A model generated the notes under the pieces. It was not told the DNA's origin and searched no databases. It saw nothing but the letters and a program-made list of their open reading frames with translations. A stretch of 64,000 nt of DNA from Centroberyx gerrardi (Eukaryota > Chordata > Actinopteri > Beryciformes > Berycidae), in NCBI RefSeq assembly GCF_048128805.1, contig NC_136016.1, forward strand, positions 18,725,176 through 18,789,175, in the 5' to 3' direction. Positions 10,441-61,800 of the stretch are shown piece after piece. A program made the translations under genes and the position numbers. Every line of letters begins with the position of its first letter. Position 1 is the first letter of the stretch.

Positions 10441-10589
10441 ATATTGCTTCATTGTCAACACTCACTATCCAGGCAACTTTATTTTTTATTAAAATCACAC
10501 AATATTATATAAAAATGACATAATTTACGTTAATACTCTTTTTCAAAATATGAACACAAGGTGCATCCATTCTCCAAGTTTGGTGAGAA

Positions 10590-11704
10590 TTAGTGTGGAT
10601 TTTGGACTGTGGGTGCCGGTGGTGAACTCTGGGGCCGAGGGAGCGTGGAGGGTGGGGGTGGCGGTGGGGGTCGGGGGGGCGGAGGCGGAGGCGGAGGGCC
10701 TTCGGGTGTCGACCAGTGATGGGGTTCCAGCGGCAGGGTGATGGGATACATCTCGTAGGCGGGCGGCGGGCCTCCTGGCCAAGCGCTCCACAGCTTGGGG
10801 TCAAACTGCATGAGAGAGAAGTTCAAAGTAACAACAAACAGTATTTAACCTGGAGTCACTTCTTAAATCTGGTAGACAGTGTTTTGTACTCTAACCCCCT
10901 ATATTCCAGATGATATTTACATTTACATTTTTGGCATACTTATCGGACACACTTATCCAGAGCAACTTAGAATAAGTGCATCAGCTAGATAAGCTTCAAT
11001 CCTTAGATTACCAACATTAGAAGCAACACAACAAATTTTCTAGTGTTAATAAGTGTTCATTTTTCTGTGACAATTACTTTTTAGTTGTTTTTGTATGGCT
11101 CTGGGTCAGCTGTTCAAAGCTATCTAAAAGCGTTGAATTACCTATGATGAGTGTCTACTTACATAAACACAGGTATAGTTGATTTTTACACTCTCAGAGT
11201 TAAATGAACACCAATAGTAAGGAGTGCAAAGGTCAAAACAGACAAAAGAGAATAGAATTTAGAATGGGACATTTATGAATAATATAGAAATAGTTTAAAC
11301 TTGTGTGCATTAAAGAGATGTGGTGGCAGTGGGTGCAGCAGGGGCGAGCGCACCAGTGAGTACGGTGGTGGGAGGTCTACAGTGCTGTAGGGAGGCGGGA
11401 GTCTGTTGGTGTGTCTGTCCACTTCTTCCTGTCTTCCAGACAAAGGAATGACCTGGATGGAGGAGGAGCGGTCATGTTGCGTTGGCACGGTGATGTCTTG
11501 TAATGCTCTTTTCCTCTTGACGTGCAAATAGAAGCAGAGCAGGACCACAGCTATGGACACCACCAGGGCAGGGAATCTGGGAATATGGTGCAAACAAGTC
11601 TCAGGTCTCGCCAGTTCCCATCTTACAGTATGGTAGAGGACATTTTGAGATGCGTTCTTTGACCATACTCACATATATCCAAAGATATTCCCTAGCGATG
11701 TCAT
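10590..11704 (-). CDS. Unrecognised single-pass membrane protein with PPxY tail (gene A of tandem pair)
   Basis: Three coding exons are read on the minus strand: 11704-11673, 11576-11354 and 10805-10590 (TAA). They total 471 nt, giving 156 residues. The predicted protein begins MTSLGNIFGY and goes straight into one hydrophobic helix (FPALVVSIAVVLLCFYLH) with a basic KRKR stop-transfer, so only about ten residues face outside. The tail carries two PPPY motifs (RLPPPYSTV, DLPPPYSL), one PPAY (PPPAYEMYP) and a polyproline end. PPxY motifs are ligands for WW domains such as those of NEDD4-family ubiquitin ligases; that role is inferred. Splice phases and exon content match the neighbouring gene at 13259-13983, so the two are tandem paralogs. 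The donor at 11353 (GTGCGC) is weak. I do not recognise the family. Confidence 0.72.
10911..10980 (+). repeat. Short interspersed fish repeat fragment
   Basis: The stretch ACATTTACATTTTTGGCA, then CTTATCCAGAGCAACTTA and AATAAGTGCAT, matches a widely scattered fish repeat pattern known from memory. It lies inside the intron of PPxY gene A. No target duplication was identified. Confidence 0.45.
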
Positions 11705-12438
11705 GGCTGGAATTAAGACAGGCTGCTGACATTACTGTGAGAAAAGAAGAATTATAAGAACATCTGGTGCAGCAGATGAGTTTAATGACATTCCTAACAA
11801 AAAAGAATGGGAAGCATTTTACTGTCCTTGGTTTACATTTTAATTCAGCAACTGTTATACTGACAGATGAGCCAATTAATTATGTATCAGAATTATTGTA
11901 TTTACAATAAGACCTAACTATATACTCACACCATCTTTTCAGAGTAGAAATTCAGCAGACTTTGGACATTGTAACTGACGCAGATCAACAAATGGGTGTG
12001 ACCTGACGTCACAGGATACGATAATGTTTCAGTATTAAATTGCTCCAACAATCAATACAAATCAACTGGAACAATAATAAGAGACTAATTGGGTGCTGAT
12101 TGCCCAATCACAGGGGTTCCAGGAATCTCATGACCTCATCTACTGCACCTGCTGTACAGTGTTATTTAACTATAAAACTAATGTCACGTTAAAAACCTTT
12201 AAAAGTTACTTCCAATTTATGTTTAGAATTGTTAAATGAAGACGCTGTGAGCTTGGAAGATCGGTATACTGTTTAACGACTGAAGTTGGACCTTCATGTT
12301 ATAAATCTGTCTTATCCAAACTCCAAAGTAAACTAAATCTTTTGAATTCACATGATTCTAACACATGCCACACTGTTGACACAGAATTAGACAATAATTG
12401 GCTACCTATTATATTGATTATAGTGGGGTCAGTCTTAC

Positions 12439-12560
12439 CTTTTTTAAGATCCCAATAGCTACAGAAATTGTCCTGACCTGCGGGCCGCTCTCAAGGATCA
12501 TGTGTCACAAAGGAAGTGCACAAGATGAACTGCTTTTACAGCGTCGTTGTCTTATTTAAA
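12439..12560 (-). promoter_or_regulatory. Probable 5' non-coding exon and promoter of PPxY gene A
   Basis: On the minus strand a good donor (AAAAAAG before GTAAGA, exon end 12439) is preceded by about 90 bases of transcribable sequence. A TATA-like TTTAAATAAG lies at 12551-12560. The coding first exon has its own acceptor (TTTTCTCACAG) ending at 11735, leaving 30 bases of leader before the ATG. Gene B shows the same layout. Confidence 0.4.
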
Positions 12561-13258
12561 GACACAGCACTTACAGGTGTGTTCTCTGTTCTGCACATTA
12601 CTTTTGTGCACTGAAAGGAATCGACCATCACACTAAATGTTTTTCATTTCTTCCCAGCTCACTGTGTTGTGAGCCATCAACACTGGGGTTCCTCAGGGGT
12701 CAATACTTAGACCACTCTTGTTCTGTTTCTTTTTTTTTTTTTTTTTTTCATAAAAGCTGTCTTCCTATCTTGCTTTCCACAAAAACAAAACTGGACACAG
12801 CTTAAGGGCATTTTCATTTGATTTCATTTTGATTCATTAATATAAAACAGAACAATATTTACATCATAGCCTATAAAATGACCACAATATTGTTAAAACG
12901 TGTAAACTGAAAGTGCATAGTTACTCAAATATTTTTACTCCTTTGAGCTGTGAAAAAGTCAACATTATGATGATATTATGAACATTTAGAAACAGATTTG
13001 TCGGGTTTTAATGGGGTTTCCTTTGGATCTTTGCGAGTGCTGCCAATTAAATAATGATATTCATGTACTGCACAAAGTGGATTGTTTACAGTAAAAAGTC
13101 ATCATAAAGATCCCAAAATAAAATAAAACATCAGTACACATCTGTACTACAAGTCGTACACTTGAGTTCCTGTAACCTTCCCTGCGAAAAATATGTTTCT
13201 TTGGGTAACTGGGGCCTGAATGCTGGAGGGTGTTTGAGGGGAAGCAAGAGAGGGAGGA

Positions 13259-13983
13259 TCAGACACGCTCTGAATAAGCTGGAAGGTCTGTGTATGCCGG
13301 AGGTGGGTCTGCGTACGGTGGCGGTTCAAACTGGAACAGAGAATATTTACAGGGAATTATTTACAGAGAATAAAACTGGAATATTCTGTAAAATCTTTGC
13401 TCTCTCAGTGTTTTTAGTCTCAGTTGCTGATGATAAAACCTCTAAAATCTGACACCTGATAAGACATTTTCAAAAGAAACCCTGAACCAACCATCTATAT
13501 AACATAATGGCATCATCATCATCATGAAATATCTACTGAATGTGTATACATAGTGCTGTACCCCATATGGTGGTGGTGGATTGACATTTCCTGAGATGTA
13601 CATGGGAGGCGCACTGTAGGGAGGCTGAAAATAATCTTCATCTATGACCATTACTTCGTCATCCTCCTCTTCCTCCTGCACCTCTTCATATATGGGGATG
13701 ACATATACAGGTGGTGAGGAGTTAGTGGGCATGGGGGGCCAGTTTTCCTCTTGCCTGCGTCTCTTTGCATAATGGCAACAAACGATCCATAGAACTATAC
13801 CTAAAAGCAATACGGGAATCCTGAAATTGAGAATAGAGGTATTTGTTTAAAAATGGCAGAACTAAAATATGTGCAGGATACTGTAAACTAGATGAGGTGC
13901 ACAGTAAGTGAAGTAAAAGGTAAAATGAGAAGAGAGGAGAAGATGGGAAATACTTACTCAATAGTAGGATAATAAATGACCAT
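13259..13983 (-). CDS. Unrecognised single-pass membrane protein with PPxY tail (gene B of tandem pair)
   Basis: Three coding exons are read on the minus strand: 13983-13958, 13820-13562 and 13330-13259 (TGA). They total 357 nt, giving 118 residues. The protein starts MVIYYPTIE, followed by one hydrophobic helix (IPVLLLGIVLWIVCC) and a basic KRRR, which predicts a minimal ectodomain and a cytoplasmic tail. The tail has an acidic run (EEVQEEEEDDEV) and five PPxY motifs (PPVY, PPMY, PPPY twice, PPAY) plus LPAY near the end. As in gene A, exon 1 ends in phase 2, exon 2 ends just after a PPPY, and exon 3 starts Phe-acidic-Pro. The shared architecture implies tandem duplication. WW-domain recruitment is a reasonable inference, but the function is unknown to me. 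Confidence 0.72.
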
Positions 13984-14876
13984 GACAGTTTTTTTTTTTA
14001 AATCAGGTTTAAGGTTTCACACCTGGGGGAAATGATGAAGTAGAAGCTTTGTCATTAAAAAAGCCAGAATTTGATTTTGTCACATGAGCACTGTTCCTCT
14101 ATTTTACTGTTCAATTCAGCTCAATTTAATGCTCAATTTTGCAACCCAGTCATATATGGACAGATCAAAGCTAGCTCTCTCCAGACCTCTTTATATCTCC
14201 TGGTGTCCAACTCACACAGAAATAATCAGGATATTTCTAAGGCACCTTTAAATATGTGTGAGAGTTGCATAATGTCCAAAATGAGATTATCCAGGAAGTC
14301 CTAACTGTCCAACACAGTTCACTTTGAGCTGTTCTTACTCATAGATTAGCATGAACAGACATGACCTAACATTTAGAAGTACACAATACCTCCCCATTTA
14401 TTTCTCTTTTGAGACAAAAACAAGCAAAATCAGGCTTAATTGTCAAGAATTTCAGAAAGGGTTCATTCCATCTCTGTAATTTGATCCTACGCAAACTTTG
14501 AACGGAGTAATGTGGAGCATAAACACAGCGAGTGACCGGGCTGCTTATCACTACAGTTCAAAGTTAAAGCAGTCATAGCTGTAAACCGTACATAAAAATT
14601 ATAAAACTGAATTCTACCAGATTAAAAGGAGGAAACAATGACAGGCAGCAGCAAACTGGGTCTCCTCTAATCAACAATACGGCACTCATCATCAAACGCG
14701 ACATTTTTGACAGCCGAATGAATGATACTGGGCCTTCTGTTTCAGGCCTCACTTACGAGTCAGTCGAACAGAATCAAATATAAACCAGCAAAGAAAATGA
14801 CTTGATGCGGTTTGATAAGCTGCCCATGAATAATTACTGACATCAAACACCTTTTGATGCTGAAAAGACAGCTTAC

Positions 14877-14940
14877 CTTGAAGTACAAGCCGTGTAGCGC
14901 AGGTAAGTGTAACTGTTGACTTGTGAGTCGTCTTCAGGTC
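14877..14940 (-). promoter_or_regulatory. Probable 5' non-coding exon of PPxY gene B
   Basis: A minus-strand donor (CTTCAAG before GTAAGC, exon end 14877) pairs with an acceptor (TTTCCCCCAG) that opens the first coding exon at 14022, leaving about 39 bases of leader. The upstream limit is not visible. The resemblance to the gene A layout supports it. Confidence 0.35.
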
Positions 14941-15490
14941 AGGTCAAGACTTTCCTATCTCAATAGGAATACGCATGAGACATTTTATAGCCTCAGTGAC
15001 CTGTTTAAAGTCGCAGAACCTACCAGGGTTAGTCAGTGACGCAAACAACTTATCGTCTTTGACTCTGCATTCAACACTTGCAGCAGAATGGCAGGAGCTG
15101 GTGTTGGGCAAAAGGTCTAGGACTAGGCATTTATTAGCTGTAAAGAAGACTCTAATGGAAAGAACACAGATTATGACGCACAGTAATGAGCAAAACAAAT
15201 ACAGATGAAATACGGAAGGGAAGTGATATTACAGGAAAAGGAGAGGATAACAGGGAAACGGAGGAATCCCTGTTGCAGCTTGTAGCTCAGGAATGCGAGT
15301 CAAGGTGTCGAAACATGTTGAAAGCACTTCTACAGCTGCTCTCTATGCATAGGAATGCTTCCCTTTGAAGGAGGATTTTCTGTCCTAGAAATATCATCTG
15401 AGGCTTGAATGGATGTGTCGACGCTCATACTGTACCATGCAACAACACTCACAGATGAAACCGTACCACACACACACCTTTTCAAGCTTC

Positions 15491-15686: not shown

Positions 15687-18600
15687 TTAATGTAGGAGAG
15701 GAGGTGGTGGAGGTGGAGGCGGTGGAGGAGGGGGTGCTGCTCCTGATGCGGGAGGGGGTGGTGGTGGAGGAGGGGGTGCTGCTCCTGATGCGGGAGGGGG
15801 TGGAGGAGGAGGAGGGGGGGGGGCACCTCCTGATGCCAGAGGGGGTGGAGGAGAAGGAGGAGGAGGGGGGGCGCCTCCTGATGCGGGCGGGGGTGGAGGC
15901 GGGAGGATGCCGTTGGGCGAGGTGACGGGCGGCGGAGGGGGAGGCGGGGGGAGACTTGCGGGTGAGGTCGAGGAAGGCGGAGGGGGGGGCAGGCCAGCGT
16001 CCATGGAGGAGGGAGGAGGTGGAGGCGGAGGCATGCCGGGGTCCAAAGCAGCTGGAGGAGGAGGGGGCGGCGGGCAGTCGGTGGTTAGGTTGGAGAAGCT
16101 CGGCATGGTGGGAACTGACGGTGGGGGCACAGCGATGCCGAGATTGGATCTGGATGAAAGAGAAAAGCAAAATGCACCATCGACAGTTATGAGCAGTAAT
16201 GAAACTATCATCGCAGAGAGTGATTCAACTTTACTGTTACAAAGTGTGATTGCAGCTCTTTAATTGTCAATGCTGCATTTTAGCACAGGTCTTACAGTAA
16301 TGGGGCAATAAGTGAGATTTTTACTGTCCCATAGCACAAAATGACCATATCTGGAAGGGTTTGATAGGATTGTTGATCAATACCAATGATTCAAAGATTA
16401 CTTCTCTGGGTGATGAGATTTCTGGCTTTCACTTTCTGGACCGTACTCTGTTTTGGAACAAAAACTACTTGAATTTTTATGTGCTCAGCCACGGAGGACG
16501 GTTGTTCTCAAGCCAAAAAAGCAACTGACAAAAGCCATAAAGCAGGATTATTATTACAGTATTTTACACGATTATATATCACCTCTTCACTTTACATTCC
16601 TGTTGATCTTTGCTCTAATTAGCCAGGTTACTCATCTCTATTTTTGAAAATGTAACTTCATTATTTATGTCAATTACCGGCCGCCGTAAGCTGTGCCAGA
16701 GGCCTGTCGATGTTGTTGCAATTCCTCAGTCGTGGTTGGAGGCTGATAAAAGTTATAGCTTACTAAACGCTTCTTTAAAGTATACACAACCCTGCTCAAG
16801 CAAAGAGGAGCAAGTCTTTGAAAGATGATTTTTCTGGGCTTTTGCCTTCATTTTGATAGTTTTTATAGTAGAGATAGACAGGAAAGATTAGGAGAGAGCG
16901 AGAGGGGGAGGAATTATGACATGCGACAAAGGTCCTGGGCCGGATTCAAACCCAGGACAGTTACATGGTACGCGCCCTAGACCACTAATCCACCAGGATG
17001 CCCCAAGAGGAGGAAGTCTTACCCAAAACGGTCACTGAGGCTGGATGTTGGTTCCCCAGGCAGCGTGGGAGGAGCGACGGGGCACTCCACCGGCTCTGGG
17101 CCTCGACTGATGAAATGACAACAATGAGTGAAACGTTATTAGGAAACCTCAACCTTACGCTTCAGCAAAAGTCAATTAATATGAGTTCATCAAGCAGAAA
17201 CTTTTCAAACAAGATCAGACATTGTGCATTTAGATAATATCCCCATATCATAATCATATGGGGTCCAGGTGGTGAAAGTACGATGATTGTCTTCCTAACA
17301 GGGAGAAAGAAGGCAGTAGGTCTACATACACTGAGCTGTTCCCAACACTCTGTATGCTGTCTGTGGTTCCCGCTCTTTTTCTTGACTCCTGCACAGTGAC
17401 CTGGGGAGAGAAGATGAAACGAGGCAAACAAACAGATGGCATAATCTATCACTACACCACAGTCAGCCATACATCACACTTGACACCAAGGGACTACACC
17501 ATGGAAAGAGGAGAATGTATTGTGCTATAGATCCTTAATCCAGTGGGAAATAATTGGAAAACATGCGGATTTAAACTTTGGCTTGCTGCAAAATAAGCTG
17601 CACTAGTATCTGACTTCATCCTCACCTGAAAGCAGTGTCCGACGGAGTCCAGGATGGAGAATGATATGGGCACTCTTGAGTAGCGTCCCTCTGGCTCCTT
17701 GCCTGATTTAGGTAGGGCCATCAGCTTGGTACGGGGCCTCTTCTTGGGAGTAGTGAAAACTCCAATCTCTCTCCTGGCCACCTTCTCCTGGTGGATAGCT
17801 ACAGCCTGGTTGGGAGTACAGCATTTAACCGCCATAATCCACACAGCAACTCCATTTTCAGTTCATTTCTACAATCTGTCATGCAAATATCAGCTGTTAA
17901 TGTTTAATTCTTGAGAATGCCTTTCTTATAAAAGGACGGTATGAAACAAGTAACATGCATAGAGCAAAATGACCACAGATTGAAGGCCTACTGTATGAGT
18001 TACAGTAGGTGACCTGCAAGTGAAAAAATACAGTAAACTAAGATATTGGCTAAAATTTTATTTAAAGGGGCACACCACTAAAAAACATGATTTAAAACTC
18101 CTGTAATGTTGTTCATTTGATTTTGAGTTTACATCAAGTGATGTTACCTGCAGCACACTTATGGAACTTAAGAAAGCAGTTTTCAAGTGAATACGTTTCC
18201 AAGTTAATATGTTATTTTATACAATGAATAAAGACTTTTAAGGACTTAAAATCAAAGCAAGGCATTACAGCCAGCTATGCAGTAAGCTACAGTAATGACG
18301 TTGGTGAAGATCTTTATTGGGGAATCAGTTGAATCAATGGGTGGGACAAAATAGAGCTCAGGTGTACTTTGCCCCTTTAAAGAATATATGGCAGTTTTGT
18401 TTTAAGAAGTACTGCTCACCAGTGAGAGGAGGTTGATGGAGGACTCCATGTCTTTGACCTGCATGGCCTGTGAGTCCAGCAGCCTCAGGACGGTGGTGGC
18501 CAGGCTGTTGATCTGGTAGGTTACACTGGCCAGCGCCTGGGTCGCCAAAGCCTTGGATTCTTCGAGAGCCTTTGCTGGATCCTCTGCCTTTAGGATTTCA

Positions 18601-21612: not shown

Positions 21613-23583
21613 TTTTACATTTTTATTTAACCTTTATTTAACCAGGAGTGGAGTCTCATTGAGATTAAAAATCTCTTTTTCAAGAGTGTCCTGGCCAAGA
21701 CAGGCAGCAGCACAGTTACACGGTTGCAGACATAAAACAAACATATAACAATTTAGAATGAAAACAAAGAACACATTTCATCAACATTCAAAACATCTAC
21801 AGCCAGATGTGTTTGCTTCCAAGTCATTTAGAAACACTTTAAATGCATCCAGTGAGACCAGCTCCCGAAGATTCAGGTAATTTTGCAACTGATTCCAAGC
21901 AGAGGGAGCAGCATACCTAAACGCCCTTTTTCCCAGTTCAGTACGGACTTTAGGGACAGTTAGTAGGAATAAGTCCTGGGAGCGAAGACAATAACTTCCC
22001 ATACTTTTTTGAAGGATGTAGATCCGTAGGTAAGATGGAAGCAGACCAAGAATAGCCTTATAAATAAGGATGTGCCAATGGTTAAGTCTGCGGGTGGACA
22101 AGGCAGACCATCCAACCCGAGCATACAAAGAGCAATGGTGAGTAAGGGCTTTAAAATTTGTAATAAATCTCAGTGCTCCATGGTAGACAGTATCCAGCGT
22201 GTGTAGGCATTGCGAAGATGCATGCATGTATATAACATCGCCATAGTCCAGCACAGACATAAAGGTGGCAGCAACAAGTCTCCTTTTGACCTCGAAGGAG
22301 AAGCAAGACTTGTTTCTAAAATAAAAACCCAATTTCAACTTCAGTTTTTTCACCAGTTGCTGAATGTGAGGCTTAAATGAGAGAGAATCATCAATTACAA
22401 TTCCTAGATACTTGTATTGAGATACAGACTCAATCTCAGAGGCCTGAAAAGTGGTGATAGATGGGAGGTTCAGTGGCTTGGATTTTGCATTCGAAAACAT
22501 CATGAGTTTTGATTTGTCGGCATTCAAAACAAGTTTTAAGTCACACAGGGTACGTTGTACAGTATTAAAAGCAAGTTGTAGCTGACAGAGAGCCTGGTTT
22601 GGTGTAGACGCAGAGCAGTATATCACAGTATCATCGGCATAAAAGTGGAAATTTGCGTTGGAAACATTTTGAACGAGACTGTTGATATATATAATGAATA
22701 GTAGTGGTCCCAGGACCGATCCCTGTGGCACGCCCTTGGATACACCAAGGGAGCTAGAAGTGATACCTTCTGCCTGCACGCACTGAGATCTGCCTGGTAG
22801 ATAATTTTTAAACCAACAGACAGTTTGTTCTGACAGTCCTACACTGATAAGTCTTTGCATCAGTATTGCATGATCCACAGTATCAAAAGCCTTAGATAAA
22901 TCAATGAAAAGGGCTGCACAATGTTGCTTGTTATCTAAAGATTCAATAAAATCATTTACTACTTTTAAACCCGCTGTCACTGTGCTGTGTTTTTTCCTAA
23001 AACCTGATTGAAAATCAGATAAACTGTTGTTAGTGGATAAGAACTCTTTCAGTTGTTCACTCACAAGGAATTCCTTAACCAGGACAGACAATTTGGAGAT
23101 GGGCCTATAGTTGTTTAGGACAGTAGGGTCACCCCCTTTCAACAGGGGAAGAACAAAAGCAGATTTCCATATATGTGGAATTTTGTTTGTGTCCAGGGAG
23201 AGATTAAAAAGATGTGTCAAAGGTGGTGCGATAAAATCAGCTGCTAGCTTTAAAAAGTAAGGCTCCAGGTTATCAGGACCTGCCGATTTTCTAGTGTCTA
23301 AAAGTTTGAGGGCTTTACGCACCTCTGAGACTGTAACCGGACTAAAACTAAAGGCTTGACCCACCGTAACATGACCGTCAGAACAAACAGCAGGGGAATT
23401 TCCATGGGCAATGTTGAGAGAGTCGAACAAGGAACCAGAGGCAATGAAATGCTCATTAAAACAACCAAGCATTTCGGCCTTATCAGAGATTTTATGTGAG
23501 TCCTTAACAATGCATGGGGGAAGCTCTATGCCATTTTTATTTCCATAGAGCTTCCCCCATGCATTGTTGAGGACTCACATAAA
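21613..23583 (-). mobile_element. 5'-truncated L2-like LINE with open RT reading frame
   Basis: A minus-strand frame from 23472 (and upstream to about 23530) to 21781 is uninterrupted for over 560 residues. It encodes a non-LTR reverse transcriptase: [66 protein letters not shown] and the catalytic FYADDTVIY at about 22630-22641. The conserved C-terminal domain follows (SAWNQLQNYLNLRELVSLDAF). The endonuclease half is missing, so the copy is truncated and not autonomous. A typical TTTATTTAACC tail lies at 21613-21680. L2/CR1-like affinity is judged from memory. The lack of stop codons suggests a recent insertion. Confidence 0.88.
23491..23583. repeat. 40-bp inverted repeat (snap-back) at LINE 5' end
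   Basis: Arms at 23491-23530 and 23544-23583 are reverse complements over 40 bases with a single mismatch, around a 13-base loop. The left arm is LINE coding sequence (ELPPCIVKDSHK on the minus strand). The right arm is the same segment in the opposite orientation. Confidence 0.93.
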
Positions 23584-52825: not shown

Positions 52826-55800
52826 CTAGTAGGGAGAGGGAGACAGGGAGGTGAAATTAAAGACAGGATACACTTAACCAGCAGGAGAGTTGGGAATGGC
52901 TGCTTGAGAAGAACAGTTACGATTCAGAGGCTAAGGAAGTAAGACCAAGTTAGAAAGTTAAAAAGAGACCGACAAAATCCTACTGAGTAAGATGGAATAG
53001 AAGGATAAAGTAGTGAAGACAAACATGGGAAAAAAATTAGCAGCAGTGCAAGGGAAGGAAGTATTAGCCTGAAAAGGAAGTAGGAGAGATGTTAGTTAAC
53101 TAGAACAGTGATTCTCAACCTTTTTCATACCAAGGACCCCTAATTTAGTCCACATTAGGGCCACAGACCCCCATTTGATGAGATTTTGTCTCTCGGACCA
53201 TAATATTGAACTTTATTGTAGGATAAACCCCTTGAGATGAATCATCTCGTTTTCAAGGGGGTCCTTGAAACACAAATACATCTACAATACAACAAACCGA
53301 AAGAAAATTACAGGTACACATAGACACGTACAAATACATATACAAAGGCTCCCACGCCCTCTCCACCCCCAACCCACCCGCACCCCACAAACCTTTTATA
53401 ATGAATTAAACACAATTAGAAACAAGAACAAGTTGCTTTAAGATGAACAAATTGTAATGTCCTAAAAATGCGAAGCGAAGAAATGGATCGGAGAGAGTTA
53501 GGCAGGCTATTCCAATCAGAATTTAAAGGCTCGACGCCCAATTTCTTTAGAAATTTTGGGAACAAAAAAAAGGGGATATTGAGCACAAGTGTGTATGAGG
53601 ATCTGTATGGAACTAGGTATTGTTTTAGATGGGAAGGATAGTTAAAATAAATGCATTTAAAAATAAATTGCAGCCAGTGAAAATGCCTTCTAGAACGATA
53701 GCCAGTTAAGCGATTCATAAATAAAGCAATGATGGGTTCGATACGGACACCTCAAAACAAATCTGCACAGACTATTATAAACTACATTTAGAGGACGCAG
53801 ATGTGATTCAGAGGTGTTCTGATAAACAATATCTGCATAATCAAGTATAGGTAATACTAACTGAGAAACAATTATTTTTCTTACCTGAAAAGTGATTTAT
53901 TGAACGATATAGTGTGCTCAGACTGCAATTTATTTTTTTAATGACCATATCAATATGGGGCCTAAAGGAAAGTTCGGAATCAATCCAGACGCCCAAATAT
54001 TTAAAGACATCAACTTTCTCTAGTGGTGACCCATCATAAAAATTAATACACAGGTCATTGCATGTATGAGTAAGATTATATCTAGTACCAAACAGCATAC
54101 AACAGGACGTTTGTTGTTGTGAAACCAGATTTGTACAACATTGAAATCAAATTGCAATGAACTTTGAATCTGTCATATATCGGAATTAGATGTATAAATA
54201 ACAGTATCATCAGCATATAAATGGACATGGCAGTCAGAATAAATTTGCAGGAGATCATTAATAAAAATAAAGAAAAGGAGAGGCCCCAAAGTAGAACCTT
54301 GGGGCACACCCTTTTCCATAATTAAATATTCAGACTGACTACCATGAAATATGACACGTCTGTTATGGAGATACGCATTGAACCAAAATAAAGCCTGTAG
54401 AGTTACACCAATGGAATAGAGCTTATCAAGGAGTAGGTAGTGATCAACCGTATCAAATGCCTTGGTAAGATCAACAAAGATTGAACCAGCGAGCTGACCC
54501 TTATCAAAGGATGAAGACACATCGTTAGTAAATTTAAGGAGAGCAGTAGTAGTGGAGAAATGTGATCTGAAGCCGGATTGGGATTGCGATAAAATGTCGA
54601 AATCATTAATGTACTAACTGATTAAAAATTAGCTTCTCAAAAGTTTTAGCAATAGCGCTAATAACCAAAATTGGTCTATAATTATTAAGATCTAGGGGAT
54701 CACCACCTTTATGGAGTGGAGTTATTCTGGCACATTTCCAGATGGATGGAAGCATACAAGTTGACAAAGACAAATTGAATAAGTCAGCAAGTGGATACAT
54801 CAGTATATGAGAGGCAAGCTTAATAAACTCGGCCTCCAATCCATCATGACCAGCGCCACTACCCTCCTTCAATTCACAGATAACATGCTGAACTTCGACA
54901 GGTAAAACTTTTCTAAAGGAAAAAGCGCTGCTACCAGTAGTATTGTTAGAAGAACTGACAGTGCTGGAAGAATCAGATAAGGGGAAACTGCAGATAGAAG
55001 AGAAATGATTATTGAAAGCTTTAGAAATAATTGAAGGATCACCAACAATTTCATTATTGACTCTAATCGAGTTTGTGGAACTTTTGTTAGATTTATTAAG
55101 AATACTGTTGATTTGGTTCCAAAACTGTCTAGGATTATGGAAATCTTGAGAGAGGCAGTCTTTGTAATAAGTAGAGTTAGCATTTCTTGTTTTGGTCTTC
55201 CTTAAATACCTGTATGATTCCCAGTCAACTGGATCCTTTGTAGCTCGATATTTTGCCCAGGCCTTATCTCTCTGTTTAAAAAGATTAATTAGATCTGAGC
55301 TAATCCAAGGTAAATGTCTACCTTTAACTCTAATAGTTTTCCAAGGAGCATGTTTATCAACAACTTTAGTTAATCTTAGAGTATTTTTATTGTTAGATAT
55401 GATTTTGTTCAGAATCCCATGACTATCTGTGAAACTATGATCAAAGTAATCACTCTACATTCTCTAACTGTGTTAACTTATCGAAAATGGAATAATGGTG
55501 ATGTTTAACAATTCATCAATTTGCTGGGGACCACCAGAACCCCTTCAAGGACCCCTGGTGGTCCCCAGACCCCACGTTGAGAACCACTGAACTAGAAGAC
55601 GCTGACAGAATTAGAAGAGGCGTAATTAGTAAGAAAGTGAAGTCACAAACCAGTTGAATCACACCCCACACTTATATCCACACATATCCATTTGAAGGGG
55701 TGATATATTACCCAAAACCCCTACTGGTGTGTGCTGGTGGGCCCCCACTGCAGGGGGACCCGGGGGTCTCAGTAGTCCTCAGTCAGCCTCTCTGTCTCAG

Positions 55801-58800: not shown

Positions 58801-61800
58801 TAGCTTTAAACCAGACCTTGTTCATTTCAACTCAGCAGCTTGAAGAGAGTCTTACAGTGAGGTTCAGCAGGTTGACGATGTCTCCGGGAGGGACACAGTG
58901 AGTCTCTGCTGTCCCCTTGAAGACGATCTCTGTCAGGTAAAGCAGCCACTTGCCGTTGGCTACCTCAAAGGGCCACTCGAACTCCACAGCCAGGGTCCCC
59001 ATGTCCCCCAGAGGCTGTCCCAGAATTGCCACCTAGTGGTGAAGAAAAGTCAGCATGCTCAAGGAAGAGAACATAGAATAAGTCAGCACAAGGATTGCAT
59101 ATTGTGTGAAATAACACTGTCTGTAACTTCGTCAGTCCTAAATAGTATCCACCCCTGCTCATGCCAACACCACAAGACCAGGCTCACATAATAATCCTTT
59201 CCCCACGCAATATTAAAATTCCCAAGAATAAACCAATTGGTTTCAATGACAGGGTGGGGATGAGGGAAATGTGGGTGAGTTGCGCACATAGATGCAATAT
59301 ACAATCCTGGAGGTCTAATATAGTCTGAGTGGTGGAGGTGACTCACGCTGAAGGTGTACTCCACCAGACTGCCCACGTCACTGGCGCTGACCATGGCCGA
59401 CTCGCCCATCACCTCCCCGCTGAAGTAAGTCTGCACCAGAGGCTTGTCTCTGCACAGAGAGGGTCAGACATGACTGTGTGAGTGAAGGCAGCGATGAAGG
59501 AGATACTGTGGTGTGACATCCAGAGCTGCACTGGCCATGTATAATTTTACGATTACGTGCTCTTTATGTAGTCATCCTCTACAGTGGATAAGTATTATAT
59601 TTACAGTTGTACTCACATGGAGAAGGAGGTGAGGATGGTGTTCTCGACCAGCAGGACCACAGGCACAGGGTTCAGGTCCGCCTGCTCACTCAGACTGAGC
59701 AAACAACCAATAGTGTGTGTCAGTGTTGTATTTAATCATCATTATAGGGCCACAACAGCAAGGAAAGACGCACTACTACTACTACTACACAAAATGATAT
59801 ATGAATTATAATTTTGCCCTATTTTGTCTAAAAACAAAAAAGCGTAGGGCGTGTAGAGTTAATGCTTTAAATAAAAGATCTGATGATGATCTGTTGCATA
59901 ATGCTATATAATCAAAAACGGGACCCAAAGAGAGACACTCCTTAAAACTCACTTTTATGTAAAGGCATTTTCATAGTGTGGTTGTTACCCCTTCTCTTTT
60001 ATTACTTTATATCATGATTTTATAATTTTATTTTCTCTTTTATCCTTGTTTTATTCTTACTTTATCATGTTTTTTTTTTTTTACTACTTTTTACTCTTGT
60101 TTTATGACAATTGAACTCTGAACTCTGTTGGTGACTTTATCTTGTTTTGTAAAGCACTTTGTAACCTTGCTTTGAAAAGTGCTGTATAAATAAAGTTTAT
60201 TATTATGTTATTATTATTATTATTATGAAATGTGAAAGTAAAATCAGAATTAAAGCTAGCCTTTAAAGTACCTGTGCAAAAAACGGATAGGAGTAACTCA
60301 GTAGAGTCATTTTCATGTTAACCCTTAGAGGAGATACATTCATACTTGAAAGGTTTGATCAAACAGTGCTGTCCATGTGCAGAGACGTTTAAAAGACACT
60401 TACGTGGACAGCAGGAGGTGGGACTCAATCTCTTGCGTGTACAGATTGATGCCCGTTGTCTCAAAGATGAGCAGCAGAGACACCTGACAGGGACAGAGAC
60501 GGGTCAGGGACAGAGACGGGTCAGGGTCAGAGACGGGTCAGGGTCAGAGACGGGTCAGGGACAGCGACGGGTCAGGGACAGAGACGGGTCAGGGTCAGAG
60601 ACGGGTCAGGGTCAGAGACGGGTCAGGGTCAGACACGGGTCAGGGTCAGAGACGGGTCAGGGACAGAGACGGGTCAGGGACAGAGACGGGTCAGGGACAG
60701 AGACGGGTCAGGGTCAGAGACGGGTCAGGGACAGAGACGGGTCAGGGACAGAGATGGGTCACAAAACTAACGCCACACCACCAGTAAGGCAAAATCCATG
60801 AAGCCAGATCAGTGGTGTGACAAAGCGCTATTCAAACTTACCCTTTCATTGCTCTTTAACGGATTCCCCAGCTCACAAATCACCGTGTCTTCAAGACTGC
60901 ATTCTACATCGTGGTCCTGCACACACGTCAGCATATAAAGAGGGATTCAATTCATCAGTCCAAGTGGTTGGGGATGCGATCAGGAACAATCAGTACAGCG
61001 TCAAAATACTCAACACAGACATACTGTACAACAAAACACCCAATAAGTCTTTAAATCTTGCATTGAGTCTTAAAATATTCGTTTTCTTAACACAAGTGAA
61101 AAAATGTGCCACTGGGTTCATTTCACTTCCGCTGCAAATCAGCTTGTTTCTATTTTGTGTGACTCATTTTAAGAGGATTCTTGTATCAAGTGAAACTGCA
61201 CTGAAAAAAAGAGAAATTATTTCATCCCACTGGCATTTTTTCCCCCCACTTGCTTTGACACTAGAAAGTCCAGTGGTTTTTGAGGGTCTAGGAGAAGGCC
61301 AACAAGCTGTCAGCTGAAGAGGGCAAATGTAAAAATATAACTAGAACTACTATTTTCTGGTGTGAAAATCGAACAACACTGGTTTGTACAGAAAGAAGGT
61401 CTAGGAAAAGTCATGGAGGGACACTTTGAAAGCTGATACTTCAGTTCTTACTTCACATGAAAACAACCATCGACTGCCAGCCAGGCTCTTAACTAGAACT
61501 AACAGAAGAGATCACATTAGTCCCATTTTATCCACCTTGCACTGGCTTCCTGTTAGTTTTACAATTAATTTACTTTTTAAAGCATTAAATGGCTTGGCTC
61601 CAGCATACAGTATATATAAAATGCACACAAGACACTTTTGACTGTTCCAAAGTCTAGATTTATGACAAGAGGCGATCGTTCCTTCTCTATCAAAGCACCT
61701 AATCTTTGGAATCAATTGCCTGAAGAAATACGTTTTGGCAAGCTCTGTATCCTCTTTTAACACCAAATTAAACTCACCTTTTTAGTCCAGCTTTAAACTA

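Follow-up and report, generated by a model that had tools for sequence, protein, structure and literature searches.

What kind of proteins are encoded by two small adjacent genes on the minus strand of Centroberyx gerrardi, flanked by an MPP gene and an Abi-family gene, and are these two genes related to each other? They lie in a 64,000-nucleotide stretch, hereafter the window (C20:18725176-18789175; the assembly comprises 779 Mb in 278 contigs), and we refer to them as genes A and B. It seems fairly probable that both are genuine genes of this fish, likely to have arisen by an ancient tandem duplication, and that they code for single-pass membrane adaptors that would recruit NEDD4-family ligases. 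This reading derives from their architecture and from published analogues. Its direct basis in the sequence consists of open frames with matching intron phases, a hydrophobic segment followed by a basic stop, motifs in numbers above chance and protein similarity specific to the proposed frame.

Shared design and relationship of genes A and B

An earlier note on this DNA had proposed two adjacent minus-strand genes of common design, and we could rebuild both from the letters. Each begins with a tiny first coding exon (26 nt in A, 32 nt in B) ending in phase 2, continues with a helix exon (259 and 223 nt, respectively) that ends at a PPPY motif in phase 0, and finishes with a last exon with which the coding sequence closes without remainder, yielding products of 118 (A) and 156 (B) amino acids. 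The single helix, basic stop and near absence of an ectodomain described in the note were borne out: each protein has one hydrophobic stretch, with a best Kyte-Doolittle mean over 19 residues of 2.2 (A) and 2.6 (B), preceded by ~9 and ~11 residues without any cysteine, and no 19-residue window starting past residue 40 had a mean above 0 in either protein. Because the basic KRRR (A) or KRKR (B) comes right after the helix, the tail is predicted to be cytosolic.

The three to five PPxY motifs claimed for these tails were also recovered, far above the numbers in shuffled tails. A has five, plus one LPAY, against a shuffled mean of 0.45 (0/20000 shuffles reached five), and B has three, against 0.36 (a fraction of 0.003 of 20000 shuffles reached three). 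The tail tyrosines number nine in A and four in B, three of the latter being inside PPxY. Both last exons open with F-E/D-P as described, although the several further PPxY motifs attributed to them came down to a single one in B. We also read the 304 kb of chromosome around the pair in six frames and retained the stop-to-stop frames with either two PPxY motifs or a PPxY preceded by a membrane stretch. Four frames passed this filter: exons 2 and 3 of A, exon 2 of B and an unrelated one with two overlapping motifs and without membrane stretch. Of the four, only the second exons of the two genes have the membrane stretch.

The two proteins align with a score of 89 in the proposed frame, while exons 2 and 3 in the eight other frame pairs give scores of 24 to 33. 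When residues were shuffled within segments, keeping the hydrophobic, basic and proline-rich blocks, 85 of 5000 shuffles (1.7%) reached 89; N-terminal to the PPxY region, the proteins score 49, a value that 26 of 5000 shuffles (0.5%) attained. In a tblastn search of the window with B, the top match apart from B itself was A exon 2, aligned in register (E 0.34); in the 304 kb, A exon 2 shared the top rank with one unrelated match (E 1.6). The high divergence that the note saw outside the landmarks holds for DNA (best blastn match between the A and B gene regions, E 0.65) and not for the proteins, which have VIP, PPYS and, where the helix leaves the membrane, a Cys and a His in common as well. 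The intron phases agree and the protein similarity is specific to the frame, as we would expect of paralogues, and the genes are probably ancient tandem duplicates; a duplication would be old, given this divergence of the DNA. The adaptor reading does not depend on this paralogy.

The identical phases (2 and 0) would also fit a single gene with two alternative sets of membrane and tail exons, with splicing from A exon 1 into B exon 2, or from A exon 2 into B exon 3. The common strand, the distance of ~1.55 kb between the A stop and the B start codon and the weak donor of A exon 2 point in the same direction, whereas start codon, stop, poly(A)-type signal and upstream elements are all separate for A and B, which makes such an arrangement quite improbable in our opinion. 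Chance open frames or pseudogenes appear highly improbable: the models are predictions, the last exon of B is proline-rich and of low complexity, and a tblastn search with A misses B, but the same architecture is found twice, with frame-specific similarity and no in-frame stops, and the 304 kb contain no third frame of the helix-then-PPxY type.

Proposed function and points against it

If A and B are indeed adaptors, their N-terminus of ~10 residues would be non-cytosolic and their proline-rich, probably disordered tail cytosolic. They would bring a ligase to a membrane partner via their own helix or tail, and ubiquitination would then send this partner to endosomes and lysosomes; a series of PPxY motifs would increase avidity. 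We infer that the genes are expressed, that their products adopt this topology and bind WW domains, and that they have such a cargo. The pair would thereby provide candidate regulators of the NEDD4 family, in an adaptor class with members that control how much of a receptor, for instance Robo or CXCR4, is present at the cell surface.

The composition of A would also suit an immune-type transmembrane adaptor, a kind of protein that includes LAT, PAG and PRR7; in that case, membrane-proximal cysteines would carry lipid, the tail tyrosines would serve SH2 domains and WW binding would be secondary. In A, two cysteines (CC) stand where the helix leaves the membrane, and the protein has nine tail tyrosines and the sequence IYEEV, which we take to resemble a Src-type SH2 site. 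Moreover, its analogue WBP1L is palmitoylated, according to PMC6991692. However, B has one cysteine and its four tail tyrosines include three in PPxY, so that the feature common to A and B is PPxY and not an SH2-like site. We consider this alternative fairly unlikely.

Several points weigh against A and B being two genes for NEDD4-recruiting adaptors. Both gene models are predictions from sequence. Scored with generic donor frequencies, the background being all minus-strand GTs of the window, the A exon 2 donor (GGG/GTACAG) reaches only -3.0, and 34% of the background sites are equal or better. It is outscored by three further GTs that lie in phase 0 within the same open frame, by those at 13681 and 13654 clearly and by the one at 13585 barely; use of 13681 or 13654 instead would remove PPMY and one PPPY. 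The A exon 2/3 junction is therefore insecure. In B exon 1, an earlier ATG in another frame (11732-11730) opens a frame overlapping the main start codon, so translation would need leaky scanning, this ATG being a possible translation brake; in addition, a TATA scan found no TATA motif upstream of gene B. The homology of A and B is supported, not overwhelming, given the moderate shuffle support, and B was not listed among tblastn matches to A (E <= 10 in the window, E <= 5 in the 304 kb). Since PPxY is also bound by YAP, WWOX, MAGI and other WW proteins, the NEDD4 family as partner class is a guess. Lastly, for the Drosophila protein Commissureless (Comm), PMC5578492 indicates that Nedd4 binding is not needed for its midline function.

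Gene structures, database searches and locus

The coding exons of both genes were checked letter by letter (Table 1). The donors of the A 5' exon and A exon 1 score 7.2 (0.15% of background sites as high) and 1.5 (5.3%), and those of B exons 1 and 2 score 3.4 (1.8%) and 1.8 (4.6%), the latter being the top-scoring donor of its open frame, in phase 0. We judge the predicted model of B good and that of A weaker at its exon 2 donor. Longer N-termini were rejected for A and B, as an in-frame stop (at 14019 and 11734, respectively) lies within 12 codons upstream inside the same exon. A start of B at the upstream ATG (11732) was likewise discarded, its frame, followed by eye, failing to enter the membrane frame. 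TATAAAA occurs at 14989-14983, upstream of the proposed 5' exon of A, and no ATG was found by reading this exon (14955-14877). Just upstream of the likely 5' exon of B is a full cyclic AMP response element (CRE) palindrome, TGACGTCA, at 12004-12011, the sole one in the window. Downstream, B has AATAAA at 10490 and 10483, and the variant signal ATTAAA at 13012 is the only poly(A)-type signal for A.

Table 1. Coordinates of the proposed features of genes A and B in the window.
Feature	Positions	Strand	Description
Gene A, coding exons	13983-13259	-	13983-13958, 13820-13562, 13330-13259
A proposed 5' non-coding exon	14877..14955	-	donor AAG/GTAAGC; start approximate, set from TATA motif
A start-codon exon	13958..14022	-	coding 13983-13958, 8 codons + 2 nt; acceptor CCCCCAG before 14022; donor GTAAGT
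A exon 2	13562..13820	-	predicted membrane helix, KRRR stop, PPVY, PPMY, PPPY; 3' boundary uncertain
A last exon	13259..13330	-	FEPPPYADPPPAYTDLPAYSERV, stop
Gene B, coding exons	11704-10590	-	11704-11673, 11576-11354, 10805-10590
B possible 5' non-coding exon	11930..11990	-	inferred, limits approximate; overlapping candidate donors, introns from 11931 or 11929
B start-codon exon	11673..11734	-	coding 11704-11673, 10 codons + 2 nt; donor TAT/GTGAGT
B exon 2	11354..11576	-	predicted membrane helix, KRKR stop, two PPPY; donor CTG/GTGCGC
B last exon	10590..10805	-	FDPKLW, one PPAY, proline-rich end, stop

The earlier note did not recognize either protein. This was confirmed for both by a Pfam scan to E 10, which returned no family for B and, for A, only DUF6479, whose 15.5 bits (E 0.025) fall short of the cut-off of 25.4, and for B by the solved structures, where the only matches (E 0.19 and 0.38) were not credible; it does not extend to A and B being a new kind of protein. 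A whole-genome search with B at E <= 0.001 gave two matches, both to its own exons, and did not list A; since it missed A itself, other copies in the genome as diverged as A could escape it. A match between a 121-residue part of B and a phage contig, found among viral contigs, was dismissed as a chance similarity over DPKLWSAW in a phage frame. Gene A had no match in the viral contigs, the DNA of B exon 2 had none in phage records, and the 121-residue segment yielded 58 pattern matches in prokaryote genomes without any relative among them. Titles, abstract starts and selected passages of the literature contained no description of A or B, which is weak evidence, and fish annotations may already carry them under provisional names. 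Adaptors that are small, diverge fast and have split exons are difficult targets for annotation and homology search.

On the left side of the pair, the plus strand of the window has PDZ, SH3 and guanylate-kinase exons, with an L27 domain upstream of them in the left flank, a set that identifies this neighbour as an MPP-type membrane-associated guanylate kinase (MAGUK). The name mpp2 follows the earlier note and published synteny, since the best match of the guanylate-kinase exon among solved structures is MPP5. To the right, on the minus strand, Abi exons (Abi_HHR, E 6e-14; another exon similar to Abl interactor 2, E 6e-13) assign the neighbour to the Abi family. At 15690-16259 (minus strand) of the window, this gene has a long polyproline tract followed by a stop. 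Apart from the SH3 exon of the MPP gene, a search of the 304 kb for an Abi-type SH3 (E <= 1) recovered just one match, weak and distant; the SH3 exon may be absent from this Abi, although a split or diverged exon could escape the search. An ACE gene (Peptidase_M2) follows beyond Abi, with an integrin alpha gene (FG-GAP) in the right flank and two DLX-type homeoboxes ~97 to 108 kb from the pair. The neighbours of ace chosen for ray-finned fish in PMC6278350 are dlx3b, dlx4b, kat7b, itga3b, mpp2b, tut1 and top2a, so that the locus has an ordinary fish appearance. Elsewhere in the window we noticed long open frames that by eye resemble long interspersed nuclear element (LINE) reverse transcriptase (21781-23574 and 53841-55454, both on the minus strand) and a short tandem repeat (60322-60801, plus strand) encoding repeat units in overlapping open frames. 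Rfam, at gathering scores, had no match in the whole window.

Comparison with known systems

Like A and B, MLANA, PRR7 and PMEPA1 are membrane proteins that are small or have a short ectodomain and carry a PPxY tail. Descent offers another possible link, A and B being diverged relatives of TMEM92, a member of the Shisa-like (STMC6) family, that would have lost its Cys-rich ectodomain and kept the helix and PPxY tail. The TMEM92 tail presumably has a paired PPPY-S, and the locus described here holds the two DLX-type homeoboxes, the integrin alpha gene and ace; we take human DLX3, DLX4 and ITGA3 to lie at 17q21.33 and, since TMEM92-AS1 shares this band, TMEM92-type descent is a low-probability lead. 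The position of TMEM92-AS1, antisense to TMEM92, is given in PMC8024739, and that of dlx3b, dlx4b, itga3b and mpp2b beside fish ace in PMC6278350. By contrast, neither A nor B has a cysteine before the helix or a Pfam family match above cut-off, TMEM92 itself being compared by description only, and we regard this origin as rather unlikely. It also seems unlikely that A and B represent a fish family of ectodomain-less PPxY adaptors that would descend from a TMEM92-type ancestor, lack its cysteine domain and serve vertebrates in the functional role that Commissureless has in insects; if true, its members would be recruiters of soluble ligases with a helix and a PPxY ladder as their only fixed parts.

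Returning to A and B as probable NEDD4-family adaptors, their closest parallels in overall layout can be drawn with STMC6, PRRG and Comm. The mammalian STMC6 members, namely CYYR1, WBP1, VOPP1, WBP1L and TMEM92 (PMC11399591), have, like A and B, a single membrane helix and multiple PPxY motifs, and the hydropathy of A and B agrees with one helix followed by a PPxY tail. STMC6 proteins possess a luminal C*C*CC*CC domain according to PMC5578492 and PMC6991692, whereas A and B lack any cysteine before the helix and neither matched a curated family model in the Pfam scan. PRRG proteins carry a Gla domain, for which A and B have no Pfam match and no room before the helix. Lacking the cysteine pattern and the Gla domain, A and B are kept out of STMC6 and PRRG. 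Comm and PRRG1-4 are, as A and B, short single-pass proteins with L/PPxY in the cytosolic tail, and PMC5578492 describes Comm as binding Nedd4 through these motifs, with remarkably low conservation outside them. A and B are set apart from Comm and PRRG1-4 by their near lack of an ectodomain and by motif: the extended motifs GLPSYDEAL and GLPSYEQAV are absent from both, A having only DLPAYSERV and B no LPxY at all.

By analogy, A and B would work like Comm, PRRG4 and WBP1L. Comm and PRRG4 are reported to bind NEDD4-family ligases (PMC5578492), WBP1L to bind WWP2, ITCH, WWP1 and NEDD4L, its loss raising surface CXCR4 (PMC6991692), and CYYR1 to recruit WWP1 to late endosomes (PMC11399591). The kind of protein is thus already known and A and B would be a further vertebrate pair, one that may offer a natural case of how little beyond a helix and PPxY motifs suffices.

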